A DNA stretch of 23,688 bases from Eubacterium sp. GTDB taxonomy: Bacteria > Bacillota_A > Clostridia > Lachnospirales > Lachnospiraceae. The DNA is taken from contig JAFVEX010000084.1 in the NCBI GenBank assembly GCA_017475785.1, forward strand, positions 1-23,688, in the 5' to 3' direction. The notes beneath the pieces are model-generated. The model saw only the letters and a program-made list of their open reading frames with translations, made no database searches and was not told where the DNA came from. Shown one piece after another: positions 54 through 23,403 of the stretch (position 1 is its first letter; each line of letters starts with the position of its first letter). Made by a program: the position numbers and the translations under genes.

Positions 54-428
54 ATGACGATTTCTGAAAAGATTTTCCAGCTGCTTGAGGAGCGCGGCAT
101 GTCGCAGAAGGAGTTCTCTGAGAGGACAGGGATCGCCCAGAGCAGCATCAGCGACTGGAAACGCAAAAAGACAAATCCTGTGGCGGAGAAGATATTGATC
201 ATCTGTGAGCAGTTGGATGTCACCCCGTATGAATTGCTTTCCGGCACGGATGGAGAGGGGACAAGAAGTAACCCGTCCGACGTCATGATTATTCGAAAGG
301 ATTCGGAGGTCGGCCGTCTGGTTGTTGATTTCATGGAGGTGGATAACGGCCTGCAGGGGCGCCTGATTGGATATATGCGGGCATTGAAAGAACTGCAGAA
401 AAACAGCGGCGTGAAGGAATATGTCTGA
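54..428 (+). CDS. XRE-family helix-turn-helix transcriptional regulator
   Basis: A small DNA-binding regulator of 124 residues from ATG 54. An in-frame GTG at 45 would add three residues. Neither start has a strong ribosome binding site; a weak GGTG lies just before ATG 54. Residues about 4-62 form a Cro/C1-type HTH: the core reads MSQKEFSERTGIAQSSIS, followed by the SDWKRKKTNP turn typical of this family and a closing VTPYELLSG segment. The C-terminal half (about 65-124) has no domain I recognise and is rich in charged helical sequence, perhaps for dimerisation. It converges on the hybrid histidine kinase, and its stop codon TGA (426-428) shares its last base with an ATG that opens a short repeat-peptide frame. 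Its target is unknown; the left edge of the window hides most of its promoter. HTH assignment is firm, function is inference. Confidence 0.85.
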   Translation: MTISEKIFQLLEERGMSQKEFSERTGIAQSSISDWKRKKTNPVAEKILIICEQLDVTPYELLSGTDGEGTRSNPSDVMIIRKDSEVGRLVVDFMEVDNGLQGRLIGYMRALKELQKNSGVKEYV

Positions 429-559
429 TGAATGATCTGCCGGCGTCTGGTACAGTCATGAAAGCTGTATTTATGAAAGCTGCAGTCATGAAAGCTGTAG
501 TCATGAATGATGCGGTCATGAATGTCGCTGTCATGAATACTGCGGTCATGAATCCCTGA
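428..559 (+). CDS. Candidate small repeat-peptide ORF (43 aa) overlapping the XRE stop
   Basis: An open frame starts at ATG 428-430, overlapping the XRE stop as TGATG, and runs 43 codons to a TGA at 557-559. The first ten residues are unique (MNDLPASGTV). The rest is a five-residue repeat: MKAVF, MKAAV, MKAVV, MNDAV, MNVAV, MNTAV, then MNP. The TGATG arrangement would allow translational coupling to the regulator. The frame may stay open only because the DNA repeat is 15 nt long, a multiple of three, so it may not be a real gene. No family is recognised. Confidence 0.2.
   Translation: MNDLPASGTVMKAVFMKAAVMKAVVMNDAVMNVAVMNTAVMNP
455..559. repeat. 15-bp tandem repeat, seven units, each centred on TCATGA
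   Basis: Seven consecutive 15-nt units begin at 455, 470, 485, 500, 515, 530 and 545. Consensus is GTCATGAAnnnTGnn; six units carry the palindrome TCATGA and the second has TTATGA. The array fills the junction between the convergent XRE gene and histidine kinase. The last unit overlaps the kinase stop codon (TCA at 546-548 on the plus strand). Because the unit is a multiple of three, it is open on both strands: MKAVV-like pentapeptides on plus and MTAVF-like pentapeptides on minus (frame 549 down to 331, 72 codons, whose ATG overlaps the kinase TGA as ATGA). No rho-independent terminator is visible between the two genes. Confidence 0.9.
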
Positions 560-3209
560 TCAGGCTCTCCAGTGTCTCGTAGAGAATCCCAGGCTGAACG
601 GGCTTGCTCAGGTGCGCGTTCAGACCTGCCTGCATGCTGCGCTGCACATCTTCATCAAATGCGTTTGCGGTCAGCGCGATAATTGGTATGGTCTTTGCGT
701 CTTCCCGATCCATGGAGCGGATGGCTTTTGTCGCCTCCAGTCCGTCCATTTCTGGCATGCGCATATCCATGAGAATTGCATCATAATATCCGGCCGGGCG
801 CGCGGAAAACTTTTCCACGGCGATGCGGCCGTTCTCGGCGAGATCCGGCTCCATCTGTCGCATCTGCAGAACCATGGTCATGATCTCGGCGTTGACCTGT
901 ACATCTTCTGCCAGCAGAATATGGCGGCCGGCGAGATCGGCTTTCTGTATATTTTTCCGGACAGACTGGCTCTTTTTCCTGTACGCGGACTGGAATTCTT
1001 CGATGACGGCCGCTGCGAACAGCGGCTTGGGGATAAAGCTGTCCACGCCGGCCTGCAGCGCTTCTTCCAGCACGTCATCCCAGCGGTACGCGGTCAGAAT
1101 AATAATTGCGGACTCATTTCCTGTGACGGAGCGGATGAGGCGCGTCGTCTCTACGCCGTCCAGATCCGGCATCTTCCAGTCGACAAGAATCAGATTGTAT
1201 GGTTTTCTTCTGGCGTGACGCAGTTTCACCATATCCAGCGCTTCAGCGCCGGAGGATGCTGTTTCGGAAGATATTCCCGCCTTTTCCAGAACCAGCTTTG
1301 CGTGCGCGCAGGCGACGGGGTCATCGTCGACGACGAGAACCGCCATGTCGCTCAGATAGACTTCAGCGGAATCTTCTTCTGTATTTTTGCGGTCGGAATC
1401 CATCAGTGTCACGGTCACGACAAAGGTGGTTCCCCGGCCTTTTTCGCTCTCCACATGAATGTTGCCGTTCATCATCTCGACGATGCTTTTGGTGATGGCC
1501 ATGCCAAGACCCGAACTTCCGTACTTATTGGTTGAGGAAGAGTCTTCCTGGCTGAAGGTCTCAAAGATATGGGGCAGGAATTCTTTGCTCATGCCGATGC
1601 CGGTGTCCTCGATGGTAAAGCAGAGGGTTGACTGCCTGTCGTACTGTGCTTTCCGCTCCACTGTCATGGAAACGCTTCCGCCCTCAGGCGTGAATTTGAC
1701 GGCGTTGCCGAGAATGTTGATCAGCACCTGCCGCAGCTTCATGGTGTCTCCGATGTAATAATCGTCTACATGGCCGGTGATATGGCACTGATAATCCAGT
1801 CCCTTGTCCTGGCATTGCCCGCCAAACATGGTATTGATGGCTTCCAGAAGCCTGGAGAAAGAGAATTCCTCGTTTTTGAGGGTGAGCCGGCCGGATTCGA
1901 TGCGTGACATATCCAGAATATCATTGATCAGTCCCAGCAGATGGTCTGCGGAGGCTCCGATTTTCACCAGATAATCTCTGGTCTGGTCGGGCAGATCCGG
2001 ATCGTTGAGCGCGATATTATCCAGGCCGATAATCGCGTTCATCGGGGTGCGGATTTCGTGACTCATGTTGGAGAGGAAGGCGGTTTTGGCCTTATTTGCC
2101 TGTTCAGCGGCCTGCAGCGCGTCACTTAGTGCCTGACTCTGATTTTCCAGCTTCTTCTGCAGGGCAATCCGCTGTTCCAGTTCTGCCTGTTTTCCGCGGA
2201 TTTCTGCATCGGCAGTCTCTTTTTCGAGCCGAAGGCTGATGTTTTTGCGGCTCTGCGCGACTATATACGCGAAAACGCCCAGCATGATAAGGATTGTCAG
2301 GACAGACTGAAGGATACTTCTCCGGATGATGCTTTCTGAGAGCGTGCTGATCTGGTCGCTGATCACGCTTTCGCGGATCAGATAGGTCAGAAACCAGTCC
2401 GTGCCATCTATTGGAATGTAACTCAGTGTCTCGCGGATTCCCTTGTAGGTAAAGGAAGCCTCACCGCGCGAGAGAGAGGAAAAATCGCTGCAGACTTGTT
2501 CGTAGGAATAGCCTTTTTCATAAGCTGCCTGTGAGAGCGCGTCAAGAAGATTGTCTTCGACGGCAAGGCCGCCGAGAACCGTGTCGCTGAGGGCGACGCC
2601 GTCCTGCGTGTAGATGTTGGAGAAGGTCGCCCCGCTGTTCTGCGTTTTCATGGAGACGCCGGCCAGCATTTCATTCATGTCAATTTCCATGAAGCATGCC
2701 ATGAGCTTCTCACCGTTAAATGGGATGCGATCCAGAGGAACAGCGATGATAACCTTCTTTTCTGTTGTGTTCAGGTTTTTTACCGAAATATCAGCTCCGC
2801 TCAAAGTAAGATAATCAAAATGGTACGCGTCGATGTCCGTCTGTGTGCCGAGTGAGGTGTAAATCAGGCCATTTTCATCCACAAAGGCAAATTTTTCCAG
2901 CGTAAAGAGCTTTTTCATTTTTGCCTGATATGCCTGCAGGTGATCCATATCGCTCAGATCTTCGTCTGTCATAAGCTCGAGAGCGGCCTGCATGTCCGCA
3001 ATTCTGCCCTGCAGGTTGTCTGCGACGACCTGCTCACGGCGCCCTGCCAGCTCGTCCAGATAGAGCAGGCTTACCGTGCGGACAGAAGCCTCTGAAGCCC
3101 GCCTCGCGGACCGGCCAGTCAAAATGGTTCCGAGAACCAGAATCAGCATGACGGCAATGGCGCCGACAACTGCGATCAGAGTTGTGGTATGCTTTCTTCT
3201 AGAATCCAT
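546..3209 (-). CDS. Membrane hybrid sensor histidine kinase with two receiver domains
   Basis: An 887-residue hybrid kinase that would sense an extracellular cue and pass phosphate along an internal His-Asp chain. Start is ATG 3209 because GGAGGG lies 8 nt upstream; the frame stays open to 3482 but that extension has no family character. Transmembrane helix about 10-30; extracellular cache-like sensor about 35-295; second transmembrane helix about 297-318; coiled coil about 320-375; HisKA with SHEIRTP, phospho-acceptor His384; HATPase_c with the N-box (NILGNAVKF), DTGIGM and GSSGLGM boxes; receiver 1 with VVDDD and phospho-acceptor Asp677 (VDWKMP); receiver 2 with Asp815 (MDMRMP) and the SKP lysine. 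No Hpt domain is present, so a separate phosphotransfer protein or intramolecular transfer is likely. No partner regulator is adjacent. The ligand is unknown. Confidence 0.93.
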   Translation of the reverse strand: MDSRRKHTTTLIAVVGAIAVMLILVLGTILTGRSARRASEASVRTVSLLYLDELAGRREQVVADNLQGRIADMQAALELMTDEDLSDMDHLQAYQAKMKKLFTLEKFAFVDENGLIYTSLGTQTDIDAYHFDYLTLSGADISVKNLNTTEKKVIIAVPLDRIPFNGEKLMACFMEIDMNEMLAGVSMKTQNSGATFSNIYTQDGVALSDTVLGGLAVEDNLLDALSQAAYEKGYSYEQVCSDFSSLSRGEASFTYKGIRETLSYIPIDGTDWFLTYLIRESVISDQISTLSESIIRRSILQSVLTILIMLGVFAYIVAQSRKNISLRLEKETADAEIRGKQAELEQRIALQKKLENQSQALSDALQAAEQANKAKTAFLSNMSHEIRTPMNAIIGLDNIALNDPDLPDQTRDYLVKIGASADHLLGLINDILDMSRIESGRLTLKNEEFSFSRLLEAINTMFGGQCQDKGLDYQCHITGHVDDYYIGDTMKLRQVLINILGNAVKFTPEGGSVSMTVERKAQYDRQSTLCFTIEDTGIGMSKEFLPHIFETFSQEDSSSTNKYGSSGLGMAITKSIVEMMNGNIHVESEKGRGTTFVVTVTLMDSDRKNTEEDSAEVYLSDMAVLVVDDDPVACAHAKLVLEKAGISSETASSGAEALDMVKLRHARRKPYNLILVDWKMPDLDGVETTRLIRSVTGNESAIIILTAYRWDDVLEEALQAGVDSFIPKPLFAAAVIEEFQSAYRKKSQSVRKNIQKADLAGRHILLAEDVQVNAEIMTMVLQMRQMEPDLAENGRIAVEKFSARPAGYYDAILMDMRMPEMDGLEATKAIRSMDREDAKTIPIIALTANAFDEDVQRSMQAGLNAHLSKPVQPGILYETLESLIRDS

Positions 3210-4795: not shown

Positions 4796-6790
4796 ATGCC
4801 GCCGCTTGGAGGTCCGGGAGGATTTGGCAGAGGGAAATATTTGACAGAAGAGGAGAAGGCAAACCAGCCAAAAGTCACAAAAGAGCTGCTGGTGAGAGTC
4901 TTTTCTTATTTGAGGCCTTATTGGAAACAGCTGCTTTTGGCAGTTGTCTGCATCGCGGCGTCCTCGGTTCTGGCGCTGATGCCGTCTATCCTGACCGGCC
5001 GGATCATCGACGAGGGCCTGATCGGGAAAAATCTGAGCAGGCTGATTTTTCTGATTGTTCTTTCGCTGACGGTGACAGCAGTATCCAATCTGATCGGCGT
5101 CGCACAGAGCTATCTGAATACCTGGATTGCGCAGCATATCACCTTTGATATGCGCAACGCGATGTACCGCCACCTGCAGCAGATGTCCCAGCGTTTTTTT
5201 ACGACGAGCAATCAAGGGGAAATCATTACGCGCATGACAAGCGATATTGCCGGTGTGGAGCAGGTGATCGCGAATACGTTCACAAGTATTTTGTCAAATG
5301 GCATTACGCTGATTGCGGCACTTGTGGCGATGTACCGCAAAAACTGGATTCTCGCGACTGTTGGCCTTGTGATCGTACCGCTATTTACGCTGCCTACCAG
5401 GCGCGCGGGAAAAACCCGGTGGATGATTACGACGGAGGCGCAGGCGTGCAACGACGAAATCAACGGAATTCTGAATGAGACCATGTCGGTCAGCGGCCAG
5501 ATGCTGGTCAAGCTGTTCTGCCGCGAAGATTATGAGTACAGCAAGTACGAGGAAGTCAACCGCAAAATGGTCGGGCTGAATATCCGGGAGAGCATGGCAG
5601 GCCGCTGGTTCCGTGTGATCCTCGCGACAATTACCAGCGTCGGGCCGATGCTTCTGTATCTGGTCGGCGGCATCCTCATGATCCGCCGCGGCGCTGACCT
5701 GACGGTCGGTGATATCACCGTACTCGTCGCGCTGCTCTCGCGTATGTACGGTCCGGTAAACTCTCTTCTGAATATTCAGGTTGACTGGATCCGGTCTATG
5801 GCGCTGTTTTCGCGGATTTTCAATTACTTTGACATGCCGGTGGAAATTCAGAACGCGCCGGACGCGGTTGTGCCGCAGGAGGCACATGGCCGCGTGGAGT
5901 TTTCGCATGTGGGCTTTTCCTATACGGAGGAGCGGAAAATTCTTGATGATATCAGCTTCAGGCTGGAGCCGGGGCGTTCGGTTGCAATTGTCGGGCCTTC
6001 CGGATCCGGAAAGAGCACGATCGTAAACCTGATCCCGCGTCTCTATGACGTGCAGGAGGGAGCTGTGATTTTCGACGATGTGGACGTGCGGAAGCTGGAT
6101 TTGTCGTTTCTGCGGGGTTCCATCGGCGTCGTGACACAGGAGACTTACCTGTTTAACGGAACGATCCGTGAGAACCTGCTTTATGTGAAGCCTGACGCGA
6201 CAGAGGAGGAGCTCCGCGAGGCGTGCGGCAAGGCAAATGTGCTCAGCTTTATCGAGTCGCAGGAGAAAGGGTTTGACACCGTCGTCGGTAACCGCGGACT
6301 GAAGCTGTCCGGGGGAGAGAAGCAGCGGATTTCCATCGCCCGCGTCCTGCTGGCGAAGCCGGCGCTGCTGATCTTCGACGAGGCCACGGCCTCGCTGGAC
6401 TCGATTTCGGAGGCGAAAATACAGCAGGCAATCGATCCGCTCGTCACGTCCTGCACCAGTATCCTGATCGCCCACCGGCTGTCTACGATTCTGGCCGCGG
6501 ATGAGATTATCGTCGTTAAGGACGGAAAGATCGTTGAGCGCGGCAGACACAGCGATCTGGTCAATGCGGGCGGCGTCTACGCTGAGCTGTATGAGACGCA
6601 GTTCAAGCCGGGTCTCCCGGAGACAGACAGCGGAGAAGCGGATGATGCAGATGATAACGCAGAGGACAGGAATATCTTCGACTGGGAGATGCCGGAACCG
6701 GAAGAACGCGAACTTGAGGCACGGCGTCTGGCGGATGAGGAGCGCAGGAAGATCATGGATGAAATGCTGAACGGTTACAGATATCTCTGA
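4796..6790 (+). CDS. ABC exporter, fused membrane and ATPase domains
   Basis: A 664-residue half-transporter of the MsbA/LmrA/BmrA type that would work as a dimer to export lipids, drugs or peptides with ATP. The start at 4796 has a strong AAGGAGGG seven nt upstream. Six transmembrane helices span about 35-320. The nucleotide-binding domain starts near 360: Walker A GPSGSGKST (400-408), Q-loop VVTQETYLFNG, signature LSGGEKQ (504-510), Walker B LLIFDE with Asp528 and Glu529, D-loop SLD, and H-loop His560. All catalytic residues are intact, so a homodimer is plausible; no second half-transporter is adjacent. The N-terminus starts with a Gly/Pro-rich stretch (MPPLGGPGGFGRG) often seen in clostridial members, and the C-terminus carries an unusual acidic, charged tail of about 60 residues after the ATPase. 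Substrate unknown. Confidence 0.95.
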   Translation: MPPLGGPGGFGRGKYLTEEEKANQPKVTKELLVRVFSYLRPYWKQLLLAVVCIAASSVLALMPSILTGRIIDEGLIGKNLSRLIFLIVLSLTVTAVSNLIGVAQSYLNTWIAQHITFDMRNAMYRHLQQMSQRFFTTSNQGEIITRMTSDIAGVEQVIANTFTSILSNGITLIAALVAMYRKNWILATVGLVIVPLFTLPTRRAGKTRWMITTEAQACNDEINGILNETMSVSGQMLVKLFCREDYEYSKYEEVNRKMVGLNIRESMAGRWFRVILATITSVGPMLLYLVGGILMIRRGADLTVGDITVLVALLSRMYGPVNSLLNIQVDWIRSMALFSRIFNYFDMPVEIQNAPDAVVPQEAHGRVEFSHVGFSYTEERKILDDISFRLEPGRSVAIVGPSGSGKSTIVNLIPRLYDVQEGAVIFDDVDVRKLDLSFLRGSIGVVTQETYLFNGTIRENLLYVKPDATEEELREACGKANVLSFIESQEKGFDTVVGNRGLKLSGGEKQRISIARVLLAKPALLIFDEATASLDSISEAKIQQAIDPLVTSCTSILIAHRLSTILAADEIIVVKDGKIVERGRHSDLVNAGGVYAELYETQFKPGLPETDSGEADDADDNAEDRNIFDWEMPEPEERELEARRLADEERRKIMDEMLNGYRYL

Positions 6791-8523: not shown

Positions 8524-9609
8524 TCAGATGGCCGCGAGAGCGGAATTTTTGTATGCCGGGTCTTCTGTGACCTCGCGGATCAGCCTGAGCATCTGAGGAA
8601 ACCGGATCTCTTCATTCGGGTCGGACAGCTCGATTTCGACGATCGCCTGGTCTGACCAGAACGGGTAGATGTCGATTTCAAAGTACTGGTTCCCGTCGGA
8701 CAGACAGTAGCGATCCTTGCGGAGCGGTTTTTTCGACGGATCGGCGTCCATCAGGCGCTCCAGGTACTCGTCCTTCGTCAGCCTGCGCTCGATCTCCACA
8801 CGTTTCATGCCGGTGATGTTCTTTTTTCTCGTCTCAAAATAGATATAGCTGCCATTCGCGCCGCGCTGGCGGATCCGCACTTCTTCATCCGGGTCGGATT
8901 TCAGATATGTCTGAATAATGTCAACCTTCTGGCAATTCGGAAGCGCAGTCAGCTGCGCGACATCCGGGTATTCAATCAGAAACTTTCGCTCGATCTCATA
9001 AGGCTCCGGTTCGCCCAGAAAGGCGGTGATCTCTCTGATCAGGTGCCGCATTTTCCCATCAAAATCAAGAGAATTGTCAATGATCCGGAGATGCGGATGC
9101 CCGGTCCACGCAGAGATCAGCTTGTCATCCAGGGCAGCGGCCTCCTCCGGCGTCTCCGTGCGGGCTTTGTTGTTATCGGTTTCATAACTCTGCTCCGCGC
9201 CCTTTGCCGCAGTCACCAGATGAAACACGGCGTCATAGCTGTCCCGCAGCTCGATCTCATTCGATCCGGTCGCAGCGAGAACCTCTGCGAATTCCGCGTC
9301 CGTCATGTAGGCTTTGTTGTCAAGCGCGCCCCGGTCACAGACGATCAGGATTTTTTCCGCGGACATCGTCGACGCGGCCTGCTCAAAAACCTTTTCTTTT
9401 TCAAGCTGAAGCCGCATCTGGCACTTCTGAAAATCAAGGTTTGAGCCGCAGGTCTTGGGACCAACGCCGCCCGAAATCAGCTCCGTGGCAGTTTCCGGGA
9501 TAAACAAAACAGTGTACCCCCTCTGCGTAAAGGAATTCTGGATCCAGCTCATGCCGGTGGTCTTTCCTGCACAGGGTCCGCCGGTGATGACGATTTTGGT
9601 GATGGTCAT
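8524..9609 (-). CDS. AAA_28 P-loop kinase/NTPase fused to a CYTH domain
   Basis: A 361-residue two-domain protein. Start ATG 9609 is preceded by AGGAGG. N-terminal domain (1-about 195): Walker A GGPCAGKTT with Lys16, a FIPETATELI segment, and VCDRGALDNKAYM, all like AAA_28/NadR-type kinases that bind ATP or GTP. C-terminal domain (about 203-360): CYTH opens with the signature EIERKF (205-210). Alternating charged strands follow (VRIRQRG, YFETRK, VEIERRLT, RYCLSDG, FEIDIYPFW, VEIELSD), the tunnel residues that bind triphosphates and metal in this superfamily. The same order of domains is described for the animal TTD14 protein (GTP and phosphoinositide binding). The bacterial substrate is unknown; phosphorylation of a small molecule or polyphosphate handling are both possible. 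It is monocistronic. Confidence 0.85.
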   Translation of the reverse strand: MTITKIVITGGPCAGKTTGMSWIQNSFTQRGYTVLFIPETATELISGGVGPKTCGSNLDFQKCQMRLQLEKEKVFEQAASTMSAEKILIVCDRGALDNKAYMTDAEFAEVLAATGSNEIELRDSYDAVFHLVTAAKGAEQSYETDNNKARTETPEEAAALDDKLISAWTGHPHLRIIDNSLDFDGKMRHLIREITAFLGEPEPYEIERKFLIEYPDVAQLTALPNCQKVDIIQTYLKSDPDEEVRIRQRGANGSYIYFETRKKNITGMKRVEIERRLTKDEYLERLMDADPSKKPLRKDRYCLSDGNQYFEIDIYPFWSDQAIVEIELSDPNEEIRFPQMLRLIREVTEDPAYKNSALAAI

Positions 9610-9664
9610 GGTGTGCCTCCTGTTTTCTGAAAATTTGCTCGCATTAACTCATTTGAATACGATC

Positions 9665-9693
9665 ATTATACTACGAATCAGGAAGAATCTCCA
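9665..9693 (-). promoter_or_regulatory. Putative promoter for the P-loop/CYTH gene
   Basis: On the minus strand a perfect TATAAT (9670-9665) lies 56 nt upstream of the start, with TGGAGA (9693-9688) 17 nt before it as a weak -35. It diverges from the nagB operon promoter about 75 nt away. Confidence 0.5.
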
Positions 9694-9765
9694 CAGAATG
9701 AAATACACCGTCCACATTGATAGAATTCAGAGGCGTCTTTTTTGCGCTCAAAAAAAGAATTTTGG

Positions 9766-9794
9766 TTGACTGCATTTCGAGAACGCTTTAGAAT
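9766..9794 (+). promoter_or_regulatory. Promoter of the ribozyme-nagB operon
   Basis: TTGACT (9766-9771) and TAGAAT (9789-9794) are spaced by exactly 17 nt. Transcription would begin near 9800-9802, placing the hairpin 9804-9839 at the very 5' end of the RNA, directly before the ribozyme. Confidence 0.75.
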
Positions 9795-9803
9795 GTATCT
9801 GAA

Positions 9804-9839
9804 AACAGCCTTTTTTGGAAGGAGAGAGAAAAGGCTGTT
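9804..9839 (+). ncRNA. 5'-terminal hairpin directly before the ribozyme cleavage site
   Basis: AACAGCCTTTT (9804-9814) pairs perfectly over 11 bp with AAAAGGCTGTT (9829-9839). The 14-nt loop is purine rich (TTGGAAGGAGAGAG). The stem ends one base before the predicted cleavage between A9840 and G9841, so cleavage would release it as a fragment of about 40 nt. It is not a terminator, since no T-run follows. Confidence 0.7.
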
Positions 9840-10017
9840 AGCGCCAGGCCCCCGGTGGTTTTTCTTTGGCTTTTCAATATACGGCTGACGGAAGACGGAG
9901 CCGGCGGGTGACGAGGATTGGCAGTTGTCGAAAGACTCGGCGGATGCTGCCACGGCATGCTTCCCGTCCGCGCGCTTTATACATTTGTTGTATAAAAGCA
10001 GGGACAGGAGGAAGCAA
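9840..10017 (+). ncRNA. glmS-class self-cleaving ribozyme (GlcN6P-responsive), upstream of nagB
   Basis: Glucosamine-6-phosphate acts as cofactor for this RNA, which cuts its own transcript and lowers downstream expression. The conserved elements are visible in order: cleavage context A9840-GCGCC (9841-9845); P1 stem CCCCCGG (9849-9855) with CCGG-c-GGG (9901-9908); TGACGAGG (9909-9916); the core stem TGGCAG (9919-9924) with CTGCCA (9947-9952) enclosing TTGTCGAA and TCGGCGGATG (9937-9946). These match the Bacillus subtilis ribozyme core nearly base for base. A 3' extension follows: GCTTCC (9959-9964) with GGAAGC (10010-10015), enclosing a hairpin TTTATACA/TGTATAAA (9976-9996), consistent with the P3/P4 part. 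The first gene downstream is nagB at 10145, about 127 nt away, not glmS. The class is clear from memory of the consensus; exact stem boundaries are my inference. Confidence 0.92.
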
Positions 10018-10144
10018 GTGAGTCGTTAGAGAGAAAGCAAAAAGCGGAATCAAAACCGTAACAGAGGTTCTCTTGTCACTGCATATACGAAACAAAATGT
10101 ATCAGCGGCCGGAAGACGCCGCAGAAAGAGAGAAACTTTTTATC

Positions 10145-10936
10145 ATGCGTGTTGTAATACAGGAAAATTACGATAATATGTGCAAATGGGCGGCAAATTA
10201 TATCGCTGCCAGAATTAATGATCACAAGGAGGAGCGTCCCTTCGTCCTCGGCCTGCCGACTGGTTCTTCTCCGATCGGCGTATATAAGGAGCTGATCCGG
10301 ATGAACAAGGAGGGCACTGTGTCCTTCTCAAACGTCGTGACTTTTAATATGGACGAATATCTGGGTCTGCCGCACGAGCATGACCAGAGCTACTGGTATT
10401 TTATGCACGACAATTTCTTTGACCACTTAGTTGACATGAAGCCGGAAAATATCAACATTCTCAATGGAATGACAGATGATCCGGAGAAGGAGTGCGCGGA
10501 TTACGAGGAGAAGATCGCGTCCTTCGGCGGCATCGATCTCTTTATGGGCGGCATCGGCGTTGACGGACATATCGCGTTCAATGAGCCGTACACGTCTCTC
10601 TCATCCCGCACTGGCGTCCGGAATCTGACCTCAGATACGCGGATCGTAAACAGCCGTTTCTTCGATAATGATCCGGAGAAGGTGCCGTCACAGGCACTCT
10701 CTGTGGGCGTTGGCACCGTATTTGATTCTAAGGAAGTTCTGGTGCTGATCAATGGTCACAACAAGGCCAGAGCGCTGGCGGCGACCGTGGAAGGCGCAGT
10801 CAGCCACAAATGGACCTGCAGCGCTCTGCAGAATCACAATGCCGCGATCATCGCCTGCGACGAGGCAGCCTGCGGCGAGCTGACCGTGGATACCTATAAG
10901 TACTTCCTGGATATCGAGAAGAAAGAGAGGCTGTAA
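10145..10936 (+). CDS. nagB: Glucosamine-6-phosphate deaminase
   Basis: A 263-residue cytosolic enzyme that interconverts GlcN6P with fructose-6-P plus ammonia. Start ATG 10145 aligns with other NagB N-termini (MRVVIQENYD); a purine-rich GAGAGAA lies upstream. An in-frame TTG at 10073 gives an extension with no family likeness. Conserved elements: GLPTGSSPIGVYKELI (phosphate binding), NMDEYLGL with Asp70-Glu71, and GGIGVDGHIAFNEP with Asp140, His142 and Glu147, matching the catalytic Asp72, Asp141, His143 and Glu148 of E. coli NagB. It should be active. It is the first gene after the ribozyme and one base before the beta-helix gene. No nagA or amino-sugar transporter is nearby, and the two genes behind it act in GlcNAc-1-P synthesis. 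This suggests, but does not prove, use in the aminating direction. Catabolism is the textbook role. Confidence 0.95.
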   Translation: MRVVIQENYDNMCKWAANYIAARINDHKEERPFVLGLPTGSSPIGVYKELIRMNKEGTVSFSNVVTFNMDEYLGLPHEHDQSYWYFMHDNFFDHLVDMKPENINILNGMTDDPEKECADYEEKIASFGGIDLFMGGIGVDGHIAFNEPYTSLSSRTGVRNLTSDTRIVNSRFFDNDPEKVPSQALSVGVGTVFDSKEVLVLINGHNKARALAATVEGAVSHKWTCSALQNHNAAIIACDEAACGELTVDTYKYFLDIEKKERL

Positions 10937-10937
10937 G

Positions 10938-11600
10938 ATGTATACGATTTCGGAACTTTACGATCTCGAACACACGATTGCCGCGGATTATCTTCGCAAG
11001 TTTACATATCCGTGGGAAGCCCTCAAGGGAATCAAGGATCTGATCCTGGAGCTCGGGCCGGCGCTCGGGGATGAATACGAAGAGCGCGAGCCGCAGGTAT
11101 GGGTGCACAAGACGGCGAAGGTATTCCCGTCAGCCTACCTGGGAGCTCCCTGTATCATCGGGCCGAACACGGAAGTCCGCCACTGTGCCTTTATCCGCGG
11201 CTCCGCGATTGTAGGCGCGGACTGTGTCGTGGGCAACAGTGTGGAACTGAAGAATGTGATCCTGTTCGATCATGTGCAGACCCCGCATTACAATTATGTC
11301 GGTGACAGCATCCTGGGCTACTACAGCCACATGGGTGCCGGCTCCATAACTTCCAATGTAAAATCAGACAAAAAGCTTGTCATCGTTCACAACGGGACGG
11401 AACAGATCGAAACCGGCATCAAGAAATTCGGCGCGATGCTCGGTGACTATGTAGAAGTGGGCTGCAACGCAGTCTGCAATCCCGGGACGGTGATCGGACG
11501 ACATTGCAATGTTTATCCTACCTCCTGTGTGAGGGGTGTTGTGCCGGAGAACAGCATCTGGAAAGATAATGGGGAAATCATCCACAAGGAGGAACGGTAA
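10938..11600 (+). CDS. Left-handed beta-helix acyltransferase, GlmU C-terminal-like
   Basis: A 220-residue protein with a helical N-terminus (1-50) and hexapeptide repeats from about 52 to 205, the fold of trimeric acetyltransferases. The segment TPHYNYVGDSILG followed by MGAGSITSN (residues about 115-140) resembles the active site of the GlmU acetyltransferase domain, AGHLTYLGD...IGAGTITCN. His117 aligns with its catalytic histidine and Tyr120 with the following tyrosine. It lacks the uridylyltransferase domain. The likely reaction is acetyl-CoA plus GlcN-1-P to GlcNAc-1-P, but another amino-sugar acceptor is possible. It starts one base after the nagB stop and ends one base before glmM, so the three genes are clearly co-transcribed. 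Family members are often annotated loosely as UDP-GlcNAc pyrophosphorylase, which this protein alone could not perform. Confidence 0.82.
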   Translation: MYTISELYDLEHTIAADYLRKFTYPWEALKGIKDLILELGPALGDEYEEREPQVWVHKTAKVFPSAYLGAPCIIGPNTEVRHCAFIRGSAIVGADCVVGNSVELKNVILFDHVQTPHYNYVGDSILGYYSHMGAGSITSNVKSDKKLVIVHNGTEQIETGIKKFGAMLGDYVEVGCNAVCNPGTVIGRHCNVYPTSCVRGVVPENSIWKDNGEIIHKEER

Positions 11601-11601
11601 A

Positions 11602-12951
11602 ATGGGCAAATATTTTGGTACGGACGGCTTCCGGGGAGAAGCCAATAAAGAGCTGACCGCCGCAAAGGCGTTCAAGGTCGGCCGCTATATCGGCTGGTAT
11701 TACGGGCAGCAGCATGAAGACGGCAGGGCGCGGATCATCATCGGCAAGGACACCAGGCGCTCATCCTACACGCTGGAGTACGCGCTCTCCTGCGGCATTA
11801 CTTCTTCCGGCTCAGACGCGTATCTGCTGCATGTCACGACGACGCCTTCTGTCTCGTATTGCTGCCGGACAGACGGATTTGACTGCGGCATCATGATTTC
11901 GGCTTCTCACAATCCATTCTACGATAACGGAATCAAAATCATGCGTGCCAACGGGCAGAAGATCGAAGCTGAGATTGAAGAAAAGATCGAGGCATACATC
12001 GATTCGGAGGAGGATCTGCCGCTGGCTGAGCGTGAGGCCATGGGCAATGTCGTCGACTACGCGGCGGGCAGAAACCGCTATATCGGCTATCTGATGACGG
12101 TGCCCACACGGGCGTTCAACGGCTACAAGGTCGGTCTGGACTGCGCGAACGGAGCGTCGTGGAACATCGCGCGCGCGGTTTACGAGGCGCTCGGCGCAAA
12201 GGTCTATGTGATCAACAACACGCCCGACGGCGTAAACATCAACAAGGATTGCGGCTCTACACATATGGAGAGCCTGCAGAAGTATGTGGTGGAGAACGGT
12301 CTGAACGTAGGCTTCGCATATGACGGGGACGCGGACCGCTGCCTGGCGGTTGACGAGAAAGGCCGCGTGGTCAATGGAGACCAGGTCATGTTCATGTGCG
12401 GTAAGTACATGAAGGACGAGGGACTGCTGGATGGCAACACAATCGTCACGACGATTATGTCCAATATGGGTCTGTACAAAGCATGCGACGCGATCGGAAT
12501 TCACACAGAGAAGACTGCCGTAGGAGATAAATACGTAGCCGAAAATATGATGGCGAACGGTTATGTACTGGGCGGCGAGCAGTCCGGACATATCATATTC
12601 GGCAAGTACGCGACGACAGGCGACGGCATTCTGACCTCCCTGATGGTGATGATGACCATGCTGGACAAGAAGATGCCGCTCTCTATGCTGGCGGATGAGA
12701 TGAAGATGTATCCGCAGTGCCTGAAGAACGTGCGGGTGAAGTCCAAGCCCGACGCGCAGAACGATCCCGACGTGCAGGCAGCGGTGAAGGCCGCGGCGGA
12801 CGCGCTTGGAGACAGCGGCCGGATCCTGGTCCGCGAGAGCGGGACGGAGCCGGTGATCCGCGTAATGGTCGAGGCAGAGACGGACGAAATCTGCGAGAAG
12901 TATGTGGATCAGGTGATCGAAGTGATCACGGCCAAAGGACATCTGGCATAG
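11602..12951 (+). CDS. glmM: Phosphoglucosamine mutase
   Basis: A 449-residue alpha-D-phosphohexomutase, predicted to convert GlcN6P to GlcN1P for UDP-GlcNAc synthesis. Start ATG 11602 follows AAGGAGG (11586-11592) with 9 nt spacing, and lies one base after the upstream stop. Motifs: YFGTDGFRG at the N-terminus; the phosphoserine loop ISASHNP with Ser102, the same number as in E. coli GlmM; the metal loop DGDADR with Asp241, Asp243 and Asp245; the sugar-specificity loop GEQSGH (325-330); and the phosphate-binding loop RESGTEPVIR (411-420). GEQSGH and overall length favour GlmM over ManB or Pgm. Expression is expected to fall with nagB when the ribozyme cleaves. A second glmM elsewhere in the genome cannot be excluded. 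Confidence 0.92.
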   Translation: MGKYFGTDGFRGEANKELTAAKAFKVGRYIGWYYGQQHEDGRARIIIGKDTRRSSYTLEYALSCGITSSGSDAYLLHVTTTPSVSYCCRTDGFDCGIMISASHNPFYDNGIKIMRANGQKIEAEIEEKIEAYIDSEEDLPLAEREAMGNVVDYAAGRNRYIGYLMTVPTRAFNGYKVGLDCANGASWNIARAVYEALGAKVYVINNTPDGVNINKDCGSTHMESLQKYVVENGLNVGFAYDGDADRCLAVDEKGRVVNGDQVMFMCGKYMKDEGLLDGNTIVTTIMSNMGLYKACDAIGIHTEKTAVGDKYVAENMMANGYVLGGEQSGHIIFGKYATTGDGILTSLMVMMTMLDKKMPLSMLADEMKMYPQCLKNVRVKSKPDAQNDPDVQAAVKAAADALGDSGRILVRESGTEPVIRVMVEAETDEICEKYVDQVIEVITAKGHLA

Positions 12952-17573: not shown

Positions 17574-18929
17574 TCAGTCGTCATCATCGTCGTCGTCATC
17601 GTCATGATCATCATCGTCATCATCCCGGTCATAGGTCTTAGGCACATTCTGGCTGTTCTGGGATTTTGAACCGTTGTTCTGTGTCTTTACACTGCCGGCC
17701 TGAGAACTGTTGCCGGTGTTTGCCTTTTTGGAGCTGCCGGTGCTTGCCTTTTTGGAGCTGTCGGTGCTTGCTTTTTGGGAACTGCCGGTGCTTTTTTCGG
17801 CACTGCCGCGGCCGTCGTCATCATCCCGGTCGTCATCGTGGTCATCATGGTCATCATCATCCCGGTCATCGTCATCCCAGTCATCATCGTCATCCCGGTC
17901 ATTGTTGTTCCGGCCGTTGTCCGGCGTGGCGGTTTTCTTGCCGCTGTCAGGCGTGGCGGTTTTCTTGCCGCTGTCCGGCGTGGCGGTTTTCTTGCCGCTG
18001 TCCGGCGTGGCGGTTTTCTTGCCGCTGTCCGGCGTGGTGGTTTTCTTGTTGCTGTCCGATGTGGTGGCTTTCTTACCGTTGTCCGGTGTGGTGGCTTTCT
18101 GTCCGCTCTGTCTGGCTTTGTTGTCCGGATTGTCTTTCGACACTGCTTTGCCGTCCGGATTATCTTTCGACACTGCTTTGCCGTCCGGATTGTCTTTTGA
18201 CACTGCTTTGCCGTCCGGATTGTCACTCTGCACGTCTTCGCTGTCCAGATCGTCAAATTCTCCGCTCCGTGAGAGGATATCTCCGTTATATGGGTCGATT
18301 TTATACTCATATTCAAAGGCGGTTCCGGAGGTATCCGAGGACGTCACATAGAACTTAATTTCGTAGTAAGACTGACCGTCGTCTTCTTCCAGTTTTGCCT
18401 TGCTGAAGGTGACCTCATCCATTGTGTATCCTGCGTCGGTTGTGGCAATTTCCCTGGCGCGGTCGATACTCAGAAGTCCCGGGTCTGTCAGATCCGGACG
18501 GAGGGAAGGACCTCGTCCGGCTGCGCCGCCGGTCTCTGGCGTCTGCCCGTTTTCGGCGGAATCCTTTGCCGGATCGGTCGGATTATCCTGCGAGTCAGGC
18601 TGGTTATCGGCTTTTTCGGTCCGGCTGGATGGCGTTCCTTCTTCCGAAGCTTCCAGAATTGTGCCGTTGGCTGAATTTACAAGGTAATCATATGAAACGC
18701 CGTCTGCGTCGAATTCGATATCATATGCGAACGTTCCTTTTTCATATTCGAATTCGATTTCGACATCCGTCACTTCCTCCGGAAGAAGCCCGGCGTCGAT
18801 GCAGGCGAAATTCAGTGCGGCATCCGCACCGATGGCCGTCCGCCTGGCGATCTGGCTGGCTGCGTAGACGCTCCCTGTGAGTGCGGCTGCGGCGGCCAGA
18901 GCGATGAACAGAATCCAGATTTTTTTCAA
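17574..18929 (-). CDS. Secreted PepSY protein with repeat-rich, poly-Asp C-terminus
   Basis: A 451-residue predicted exported protein. The start is TTG 18929, with AAGGAGGT seven nt upstream. Signal peptide 1-23 ends VYA-A. PepSY domain 1 lies about 30-95 and PepSY domain 2 about 152-221 (IDRAREIA...IDPYNGDIL). They are joined by a polar linker rich in Glu, Asp and Pro. From residue 236 it is low complexity: four DNPDGKAVSK units, then about seven TPDSGKKTA units, an Asp/Arg/His tract (344-373), four SSKKAST-like units (379-410), and a final Asp run (433-451). PepSY domains are linked to control of peptidases or signalling in the envelope. The acidic tail could bind divalent metal or the cationic partner protein. 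It follows the two-component genes by 95 nt, as PepSY genes often do. Confidence 0.85.
   Translation of the reverse strand: MKKIWILFIALAAAAALTGSVYAASQIARRTAIGADAALNFACIDAGLLPEEVTDVEIEFEYEKGTFAYDIEFDADGVSYDYLVNSANGTILEASEEGTPSSRTEKADNQPDSQDNPTDPAKDSAENGQTPETGGAAGRGPSLRPDLTDPGLLSIDRAREIATTDAGYTMDEVTFSKAKLEEDDGQSYYEIKFYVTSSDTSGTAFEYEYKIDPYNGDILSRSGEFDDLDSEDVQSDNPDGKAVSKDNPDGKAVSKDNPDGKAVSKDNPDNKARQSGQKATTPDNGKKATTSDSNKKTTTPDSGKKTATPDSGKKTATPDSGKKTATPDSGKKTATPDNGRNNNDRDDDDDWDDDDRDDDDHDDHDDDRDDDDGRGSAEKSTGSSQKASTDSSKKASTGSSKKANTGNSSQAGSVKTQNNGSKSQNSQNVPKTYDRDDDDDDHDDDDDDDDD
17811..17900 (-). repeat. Asp-rich codon tract (GAT/GAC repeats) in the PepSY gene
   Basis: Encodes residues about 344-373, almost entirely Asp with scattered Arg and His. 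A second tract encodes the last 19 residues (17577-17633). On the plus strand both read as ATC/GTC triplet runs. Such runs are prone to slippage, so copy number may vary between strains. Confidence 0.8.
17916..18098 (-). repeat. 27-bp tandem repeat coding TPDSGKKTA
   Basis: About seven units of nine codons. The central four are nearly identical in DNA, which implies recent expansion; the flanking units are diverged (TPDNGKKAT, SDSNKKTT, TPDNGR). Confidence 0.85.
18120..18224 (-). repeat. 30-bp tandem repeat coding DNPDGKAVSK
   Basis: Three full units and one partial unit of ten codons, almost identical at DNA level. It directly precedes the 27-bp repeat block in the protein. Confidence 0.85.
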
Positions 18930-21534: not shown

Positions 21535-23403
21535 ATGTGTGGAATTGTTGGATATATCGGGATGGAACAGGCAGCGCCGATTCTGCTTTCAGGCCTTTCA
21601 AAGCTGGAGTACAGAGGATATGATTCGGCCGGTATCGCGGTTCGCGACGGGGAGGAGCTGGCGACGGTCGTCAAGACAACCGGAAAGCTGCGCAATCTGG
21701 CAGAAAAGACGGATGACGGCAAGGCGCTGAAGGGAACCTGCGGCATCGGCCACACGCGGTGGGCGACGCACGGCGAGCCTAGTAAGGCCAACGCGCACCC
21801 GCATGTCAGTGGAAGCTGCACCGGTTCCGGTTCCGGAGCGGTGGAATCGGATGTGGTTGGCGTCCACAACGGAATTATCGAGAACTACCAGGAGCTGACG
21901 GACAAGCTGTCCCGCAAAGGCTATTCATTCTACAGCGAGACGGACACTGAGGTCGCGATCAAGCTCGTGGATTACTATTACAAAAAATACAACATCGGCC
22001 CGATCGACGCAATTGCGAAGACAATGGTCCGCGTGCGCGGATCCTTCGCGTTTGCGCTGATGTTCAAGGATTACCCGGGTGAGATTTACGTGGCGCGCAA
22101 GGATTCGCCGATGGTGATCGGCGTAACCGATGACAGTACGTACGTCGCTTCGGATGTCCCGGCGATACTGCAGTACACCAGAAATGTCTACTACATCAAT
22201 AACCTCGAGATGGCGAAGCTGACAGCGGGCGAGGCGGTTTTCTACGACCTGAACGGCGATGTGATCGAAAAAGAGATGGTCGAGGTCAAATGGGACGCGG
22301 AAGCGGCCGAAAAAGGCGGATACGAGCATTTCATGATGAAGGAGATCCGTGAGCAGCCAAAAGCCATCAATGACACGATTCACTCTGTACTCAGAGACGG
22401 CCGGATTGACTTCGGAGAGATCGGGCTCGCAGATGAAGAAATCCGCGGGATCTCCCAGATTAATATTGTCGCGTGCGGCTCGGCCTACCATGTGGGCGCC
22501 GCGGCGCAGTATGTCATCGAAGATCTGGCAAAAATCCCGGTGCGCGTGGAGCTGGCGTCGGAATTCCGCTACCGGAAGCCGATTCTGTCTAAGGACGGGC
22601 TCGTCATCGTGATCAGCCAGTCCGGCGAGACCGCCGACACACTGGCGGCGCTGCGCGACGCAAAGGAGAAAGGAATCCCGACGCTCGCGATCGTCAACGT
22701 CGTCGGGAGCAGCATCGCGCGCGAGGCGGACAATGTCTTCTACACACTTGCGGGACCGGAGATCTCCGTTGCGACGACGAAGGCGTATTCTGCCCAGCTG
22801 ATCGCGATTTATCTGCTTGCGCTGCAGTTTGCGCTGGCGCGCGGTGAGATTGAGCAGGCGCGCTATGACGCTCTGCTGGCGGAACTGCAGACCATTCCGG
22901 AGAAGATGGAGCGGATTTTCGACGACAAGGAGCGGATCCAGTGGTTCGCGGCAAAATTCGCGCATGAGAAGGACGTTTTCTTCGTCGGACGCGGCATCGA
23001 CTACGCGATCGGCATGGAGGGCAGCCTCAAGATGAAGGAGATTTCCTACATCCACAGTGAGGCGTACGCGGCCGGCGAGATGAAGCATGGCACGATCAGC
23101 CTGATTGAGGACGGCACGCTGGTCATCGGCGTCCTCACGCAGGATGAGCTGTTCGAAAAGACCATCTCCAATATGGTCGAGTGCAAGAGCCGCGGCGCGT
23201 ACCTGATGGGTCTGACGACGAACGGGCATTATTCGGTGGAGGATTCTGCGGACTTTACGGTCTACATCCCGAAGACGGACGTGCATTTCGCGGCGTCTCT
23301 GGCTGTGATTCCGCTGCAGCTGCTTGGTTACTACATGAGCGTGGCGCGCGGACTGGATGTGGATAAGCCGCGCAACCTGGCCAAGAGCGTGACGGTGGAG
23401 TAG
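21535..23403 (+). CDS. glmS: Glutamine--fructose-6-phosphate aminotransferase (isomerizing)
   Basis: A 622-residue cytosolic enzyme making GlcN6P from fructose-6-P and glutamine. Start ATG 21535 is set by the N-terminal CGIVGYIG: the Cys after Met is the glutaminase nucleophile and must be exposed. AAGGAG and AAAGGA precede it. Glutaminase domain 1-about 240: EYRGYDSAG, GHTRWATHGEPS, HNGIIENY, RVRGSFAFALM. Two SIS domains follow: ACGSAYHVG, ISQSGETADT, ATTKAYSAQL, then VGRGIDYAIGMEGSLKMKEISY, EAYAAGEMKHG (split here as GRGIDY and EMKHG), and the C-terminal PRNLAKSVTVE. An unusual Gly/Ser-rich insert of about 14 residues (93-106) sits before VHNGI. The enzyme should be active. It has its own promoter, no visible ribozyme, and diverges from the two-component operon. 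Confidence 0.97.
   Translation: MCGIVGYIGMEQAAPILLSGLSKLEYRGYDSAGIAVRDGEELATVVKTTGKLRNLAEKTDDGKALKGTCGIGHTRWATHGEPSKANAHPHVSGSCTGSGSGAVESDVVGVHNGIIENYQELTDKLSRKGYSFYSETDTEVAIKLVDYYYKKYNIGPIDAIAKTMVRVRGSFAFALMFKDYPGEIYVARKDSPMVIGVTDDSTYVASDVPAILQYTRNVYYINNLEMAKLTAGEAVFYDLNGDVIEKEMVEVKWDAEAAEKGGYEHFMMKEIREQPKAINDTIHSVLRDGRIDFGEIGLADEEIRGISQINIVACGSAYHVGAAAQYVIEDLAKIPVRVELASEFRYRKPILSKDGLVIVISQSGETADTLAALRDAKEKGIPTLAIVNVVGSSIAREADNVFYTLAGPEISVATTKAYSAQLIAIYLLALQFALARGEIEQARYDALLAELQTIPEKMERIFDDKERIQWFAAKFAHEKDVFFVGRGIDYAIGMEGSLKMKEISYIHSEAYAAGEMKHGTISLIEDGTLVIGVLTQDELFEKTISNMVECKSRGAYLMGLTTNGHYSVEDSADFTVYIPKTDVHFAASLAVIPLQLLGYYMSVARGLDVDKPRNLAKSVTVE

Follow-up and report, generated by a model that had tools for sequence, protein, structure and literature searches.

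Judged from sequence, a ribozyme of the glmS class heads a set of amino-sugar genes (nagB, a gene for a GlmU-like acetyltransferase, glmM and sometimes glmS) in gut Clostridia and a few Erysipelotrichaceae, with the lineages named from record titles. Our main reading, to which we assign a probability of roughly 0.55, is that the ribozyme mediates product feedback on an operon for cell-wall amino sugars, whose NagB would act as an ammonia-dependent glucosamine-6-phosphate (GlcN6P) synthase, with the direction of NagB taken from genomic context only. Reportedly, all but two of the 463 ribozymes in a 2011 survey of the class lie before glmS. A 2007 survey presents the class as a repressor of the glmS genes that lie downstream of it (PMC2258182). 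No report of a pairing between a glmS ribozyme and nagB was found in the titles and abstract openings of the literature searched; earlier notice in the subscription literature is possible.

The window, i.e., the whole 23,688-nucleotide stretch of Eubacterium sp. DNA analysed here, contains what its sequence indicates is a real glmS-class ribozyme, the response to GlcN6P being taken from the class. The first-pass annotation had made this class assignment and suggested a scan with the Rfam covariance model; that model, RF00234, matched positions 9829–10032 of the forward strand over its full length (model positions 1–167) with 39.2 bits, above the gathering score of 37 (E = 4.1e-6 in a search of 23,688 bases against 4,227 families). 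The core blocks that the annotation had named were borne out (AGCGCC at 9840–9845, TGACGAGG at 9909–9916 and TCGGCGGATG at 9937–9946). The low Rfam score of the window is probably due to the long P1 and to the long P3, which contains an insertion. Rfam misplaced the 3' half of the ribozyme (last helix), and the alignment with 43 relatives corrected this, giving an extended P1 at ~9846–9908, an extended P3 at ~9953–10025 and the P4 domain at ~10027–10079, all on the forward strand. As delimited by RF00234, the 44-copy alignment and a subtype model termed R1, the ribozyme belongs to a nagB subtype and spans 9840–10079 of the forward strand (3' end approximate); R1 matched the whole element with 117.5 bits, a score that is not independent because the window was in the training set. 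Alignment to RF00234 and the 43 relatives places the inferred self-cleavage site between A-1 (9840) and G1 (9841) of the forward strand. The G1 at 9841 agrees with the glmS ribozyme class, and an A at position -1 was present in all 48 nagB-type leaders examined.

AGCGCC, GACGAGG (9910–9916) and TCGGCGG (9937–9943) are invariant in the 44 aligned copies, i.e., the window and its 43 relatives. RNAalifold returned 31 pairs, 17 of which show at least one both-side (compensatory) change, with pseudoknots outside the count. In total 49 nagB-type copies were collected, and the core lay at the expected point in 48 (L219 was dropped); four were excluded from the 44-copy alignment, two with misplaced 3' ends (L115, L036) and two with long inserts (L114, L001).

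The genes behind the ribozyme follow the order given in the first-pass annotation, which was confirmed by matches to TIGR models on the forward strand. nagB, of the glucosamine-6-phosphate deaminase family, occupies 10145–10936 (equivalog TIGR00502, 383.7 bits, cut-off 236.9), and the catalytic motifs of its protein, NMDEY and GVDGHIAFNEP, are intact. It is followed by a gene for a left-handed beta-helix acetyltransferase at 10938–11600, which resembles the C-terminal part of archaeal-type GlmU and remains below the cut-off (TIGR03992, 140.9 bits, cut-off 292.1), and by the phosphoglucosamine mutase gene glmM at ~11602–12951 (TIGR01455, 543.9 bits, cut-off 447.55), after which rml genes are located. 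The element thus departs from the usual location in the glmS 5' UTR, since the next gene is nagB and the GlcN6P synthase gene glmS (21538–23403, forward strand; TIGR01135, 756.8 bits, cut-off 418.05) lies 11.5 kb away. A second ribozyme before this glmS was considered and rejected, as the window holds no second RF00234 match among those listed up to E 5. The placement ahead of nagB instead of glmS, the central claim of the annotation, is therefore upheld: the window's glmS lacks such an element, and the pairing recurs in relatives.

The annotation had also proposed a survey of related genomes for this pairing. We took the genomes of the best 80 of at least 585 NagB relatives, a set selected by similarity to the NagB of the window. 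RF00234 was found in 35 of 50 and 5 of 30 of these genomes, with 41 matches in total, and 37 of the 41 ribozymes head a nagB-containing set. nagB comes first in 29 of these sets; the order is acetyltransferase-nagB in five, acetyltransferase-glmM-nagB in two and glmM-nagB-glmS in one. Among the loci with the ribozyme-nagB pair is L019, from Ruminococcaceae bacterium P7, which its record title suggests is an isolate. In one locus (L018), glmS ends just ahead of the ribozyme, so that the order reads glmS-ribozyme-acetyltransferase-nagB-glmM. The remaining four ribozymes comprise three before glmS (in G040, in G079 and as the second copy of G017) and one in G075 with no recognised co-directional gene behind it. 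G017 has two copies, one of the nagB subtype before nagB (130.5 bits with R1, in the training set); the other, before glmS, is of the ordinary kind (60.9 bits). The ribozyme of G075 (L112/L220) lies behind glmM, and only opposite-strand genes follow it when the longest frames are considered; perhaps it is an orphan left after loss or movement of glmS, or a misassembly.

No ribozyme stands at 43 of the 80 nagB loci, and three of these (L009, L012, L015) encode NagBs that are as window-like as the ribozyme-bearing ones; control by the ribozyme is thus not essential to this NagB. When R1 was used to look for weak ribozymes missed by Rfam, its 38 matches were confined to the window and to the 37 loci already counted, leaving the remaining 43 unmatched. 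The ribozyme label is clustered on the NagB tree (0/500 shuffles as low). A single origin of the trait was considered, and the quick tree needs 12 changes, of which at least two are forced by well-supported branches; with 41 of its 77 inner branches drawn open, the tree shows neither one origin nor many.

Broader samples place the pairing beside the canonical one. In an even sample of the family of genome G014, RF00234 was found in 74 of 397 genomes, and the ribozyme was followed by glmS in 60 loci, by nagB, the acetyltransferase gene or glmM of the set in 13, and by a contig end in one. Two of the 13 (G014, G016) overlap with the 80-genome set, and in another (L219 of G336) the nagB frame looks shortened. 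R1 gave any match in 79 of 392 genomes of an order sample and in 208 of 398 of a phylum sample, and the loci of 58 of these matches, the higher-scoring ones, were examined. Here 47 ribozymes precede glmS and seven (L223–L228, L253) precede the nagB set or its acetyltransferase-glmM part; two of the seven (L225, L226) repeat G014 and G028, and the 1.5 kb examined of L224 does not include nagB. Two loci (L254, L270) are followed by none of these genes, and two were unassigned by motif search, namely L231, which equals the already counted G336, and L271, in which the downstream frame begins like GlmS. Counted together, the ribozyme stands at the head of the nagB set in the window and 53 different genomes (37 + 11 + 4 + 1).

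With R1, nagB-linked copies score ~98–143 bits and most other listed matches 31–85 bits, where the former range includes training copies and R1 was trained on many of the nagB-type copies. Scores of at least 95 bits go with the nagB set, the exceptions being G168, G466 and G339 with 112 bits before glmS. Ribozymes of the nagB subtype before glmS (L189, L193, L199; 112 bits) are possible bridges between the two placements. A different target was observed in L270 (genome G815), where a ribozyme at 1501–1637 of the reverse strand (67.8 bits with R1) lies directly before glnA (95–1504, reverse strand), which encodes glutamine synthetase (TIGR00653, 578 bits), i.e., the supplier of the glutamine used by GlmS; G815 has a second R1 match.

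Gene order suggests that, at least in some genomes, nagB is itself a target of control, since in some loci no other amino-sugar gene was found behind it. In five loci (L003, L006, L023, L025, L190) no window-like acetyltransferase gene, glmM or glmS was found behind nagB, and the long frame that comes next is either distant or on the opposite strand, within the limits that a 110-codon co-directional frame comes next in L003, that the sequence of L006 ends 0.7 kb past nagB and that a co-directional frame lies 0.7 kb on in L023. These loci, subject to the limits on L003 and L006, and the position of nagB as first gene in most of the sets argue against an explanation in which the ribozyme serves a whole operon on behalf of glmM, the acetyltransferase or, ancestrally, glmS, and NagB is a passenger, an ordinary deaminase that perhaps remains from an operon with glmS. 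This explanation gains from loci in which glmS belongs to the same gene set, with the ribozyme (L022, L051, L062) or without it (L042), from the gene order of L018, and from G339, where a subtype ribozyme of 112.2 bits precedes a glmS that is 69% identical to that of the window; on balance we regard it as unlikely. The first-pass annotation had seen two ways to reconcile a ribozyme shut-off with a GlcN6P-consuming enzyme, namely that NagB works as a synthase or that the ribozyme really serves glmM and the acetyltransferase. The former fits the genomic context better, and a ribozyme serving only the latter genes is weakened by the five loci listed above. In a further locus (L026), the order ribozyme-nagB-yvcK/glmR (4822–6738; TIGR01826, 268 bits, cut-off 196) joins the ribozyme to the gene of a UDP-GlcNAc-binding regulator, and the product of yvcK/glmR supports GlmS in B. 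subtilis according to the available part of one report (PMC6171935).

NagB is a reversible enzyme, and feedback by GlcN6P makes sense if it runs net in the direction of amination. The genomic context points to a place of NagB on the supply side of GlcN6P: glmM, the acetyltransferase gene or glmS lies within 4.5 kb of nagB at 30 of 37 ribozyme loci vs. 18 of 43 loci without ribozyme. The NagB sequences are those of the deaminase family with ordinary motifs and no sequence mark tied to synthesis. Gly/Arg at positions 158/160, which we take to be the allosteric residues of E. coli NagB, were rejected as a biosynthetic mark because they are present in 81 of 81 NagBs with or without ribozyme. In Giardia and Entamoeba NagB is regarded as the maker of GlcN6P, and aminating activity was assayed for the Giardia enzyme, as stated in the accessible portion of the source (PMC4281351); the title of a study on S. 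mutans has GlmS and NagB acting in opposing directions (PMC3306399).

Among 34 ribozyme-nagB genomes (within G001–G050), nagA scored over the cut-off in 12 and below it at ~205 bits in two, with weak matches at most in 20; in the same genomes, glmS was over the cut-off in 25, fragmentary in two and not found in seven, with most of these genomes being draft MAGs, in which absence is weak evidence. Neither glmS nor nagA was found in G001. As the window has a glmS, and 25 of the 34 genomes have one that scores over the cut-off, GlcN6P could in most cases also come from a source other than NagB. In the 50 genomes, nagA is commoner where glmS is unmatched (9/11 vs. 12/39, Fisher 0.004), which could mean salvage of GlcNAc, so that loss of glmS is not clean evidence for synthesis by NagB. 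As a control for completeness, gyrB was over the cut-off in 40 of 50 genomes, a count blurred by its paralogue parE; inspection of the rows found no gyrB proper in G008, G013 and G032, of which G008 and G013 are among the seven genomes without glmS. With RNase J as the control, two of 50 genomes were unmatched vs. 11 of 50 without glmS (three more fragmentary), a difference that is suggestive only (Fisher 0.015).

The coexistence of glmS with ribozyme-nagB in those 25 genomes would also suit an arrangement in which NagB works near equilibrium in both directions as a buffer, and the ribozyme and GlmS fix the set point of GlcN6P with no fixed net direction. Both the reversibility of NagB and the assayed amination by the Giardia enzyme, the latter from the accessible portion of PMC4281351, speak for such a buffer; however, lowering NagB at high GlcN6P would presumably not help to drain GlcN6P, and we consider this arrangement improbable.

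Upstream of the ribozyme, a promoter-like pair (TTGACT-17-TAGAAT, 9766–9794, forward strand) was found as a consensus match only (10/12), and four such sites occur in 9600–10200 vs. 0.6 on average in shuffles. The RNA start predicted from it at ~9801–9803 lies ~40 nt upstream of the cleavage site, so that the ribozyme would be part of the nagB mRNA. The predicted transcript would begin with a leader hairpin, P0 (9804–9839, forward strand; -16.2 kcal/mol, z -4.68, 0/200 shuffles as good), which has 11 Watson-Crick pairs (9804–9814/9829–9839) and two further pairs, carries the Shine-Dalgarno-like GGAAGGAG at 9817–9824 in its loop and stops one base before A-1. In each of 48 nagB-type leaders we took the longest Watson-Crick stem that ends no more than two bases from the site; its mean length is 5.46 pairs, vs. 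3.66 when 3' arms were swapped between genomes (sd 0.14; highest of 200 swaps 4.02). The 61 glmS-type leaders (two of 63, in which the core lay away from the expected point, were left out) have a mean of 3.39, vs. 3.47 after swapping. Of the 48 nagB-type copies, 43 allow a stem anchored between -2 and -4, with C-G, T-A and A-T at the third pair; as the anchoring step selected such stems, the swap test is the fair test, and genomes that are related do not count as independent. Within 60 bases, GGAGG is present in 35 of 48 nagB-type and 18 of 61 glmS-type leaders, and GGAGG, AGGAG or GGAAGGA in 45 of 48 and 23 of 61; the window's own leader has GGAAGGAG and not GGAGG, and a GGAGG hairpin also lies farther upstream in some glmS-type leaders. 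In carrying a Shine-Dalgarno-like loop on a hairpin at the predicted 5' end, the leader resembles known mRNA stabilisers, and by this analogy we propose that P0 protects the uncut mRNA. No report of the leader hairpin was found in the literature searched.

Under product feedback, then, high GlcN6P would cause the RNA to cleave itself between 9840 and 9841, removing the hairpin that probably shields the uncut mRNA and leaving a 5'-OH end open to RNase J, upon which nagB and the genes behind it would fall. NagB would run in net amination of fructose-6-phosphate with ammonia to GlcN6P, which is possible in ammonia-rich gut contents, and the GlcN6P so made would feed GlmM and the acetyltransferase towards UDP-GlcNAc. 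In B. subtilis, according to the part of the report available, the mRNA, once cleaved in response to GlcN6P, has a 5'-OH end and is degraded by RNase J1 (PMC3997798). Given this precedent and the match to RNase J in 48 of 50 genomes (45 over the cut-off), OFF control through RNase J is likely by analogy with the ribozyme class.

The same precedent and the presence of RNase J count against an ON switch, in which cleavage strips an inhibitory leader whose Shine-Dalgarno-like loop could trap ribosomes and GlcN6P thereby induces a catabolic NagB deaminase. Its logic suits a deaminase, and the conserved leader hairpin is indeed what cleavage would cut off, but many neighbouring genes are biosynthetic, and we hold the ON switch to be highly improbable. 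That the element is a chance or decayed ribozyme-like sequence, as its margin of only 2.2 bits over the Rfam cut-off might suggest, is scarcely credible given the intact core blocks, the compensatory changes across 44 sequences and the consistent placement.

Compared with the RF00234 ribozyme before glmS, as in the cdaA-cdaR-glmM-glmS operon of B. subtilis, the element shares the cleavage-site and catalytic-core sequences, the helix layout and a co-directional position ahead of the first controlled gene; it differs in heading nagB, the acetyltransferase gene and glmM, in being a distinct sequence subtype and in its conserved leader hairpin at the cleavage site. With the 5' mRNA stabilisers of Bacillota (5' hairpins and the STAB-SD of cry genes), it shares a hairpin, here at a predicted 5' end, and a Shine-Dalgarno-like sequence away from a start codon, whereas the present candidate stabiliser is attached to a ribozyme able to remove it. 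In Giardia lamblia and Entamoeba, too, a NagB-fold deaminase has been proposed as the source of GlcN6P; in the accessible portion of that work (PMC4281351) these are eukaryotes without GlcN6P synthase and with no ribozyme, whereas most genomes here keep glmS. The catabolic nagA-nagB operons under NagR, as described in the available excerpt of PMC6141813, have the nagB gene in common with the present loci, but nagA is not over the cut-off in 22 of the 34 ribozyme-nagB genomes.

As a switch, the glmS ribozyme is known for its tie to one gene, and a subgroup tied to nagB offers a natural test of the purpose of that switch. If GlcN6P shuts off nagB, NagB is likely on the supply side here and its catabolic annotation would be wrong for these bacteria; at gut sites rich in ammonia, the nitrogen of cell-wall sugars would then come from ammonia and not from glutamine only. 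That a lineage of gut Clostridia combines a NagB synthase under GlcN6P-ribozyme feedback with a dedicated 5' stabiliser hairpin lost on cleavage is a tentative proposition, to which we give somewhat less than even odds; if true, ribozyme and hairpin would form an RNA fuse of two parts that unites the sensing of a metabolite, the loss of a protective cap and decay in one event. The pairing also bears on GlcN6P mimics proposed against the ribozyme, as the controlled gene differs between gut bacteria. Elsewhere in the window, a gene for an AAA ATPase that matches a CYTH domain in Pfam lies divergent from the ribozyme operon (8524–9609, reverse strand), and a 451-residue protein encoded at 17574–18929 of the reverse strand carries tandem DNPDGKAVSK and DSGKKTATP repeats and a long Asp/His-rich tail.
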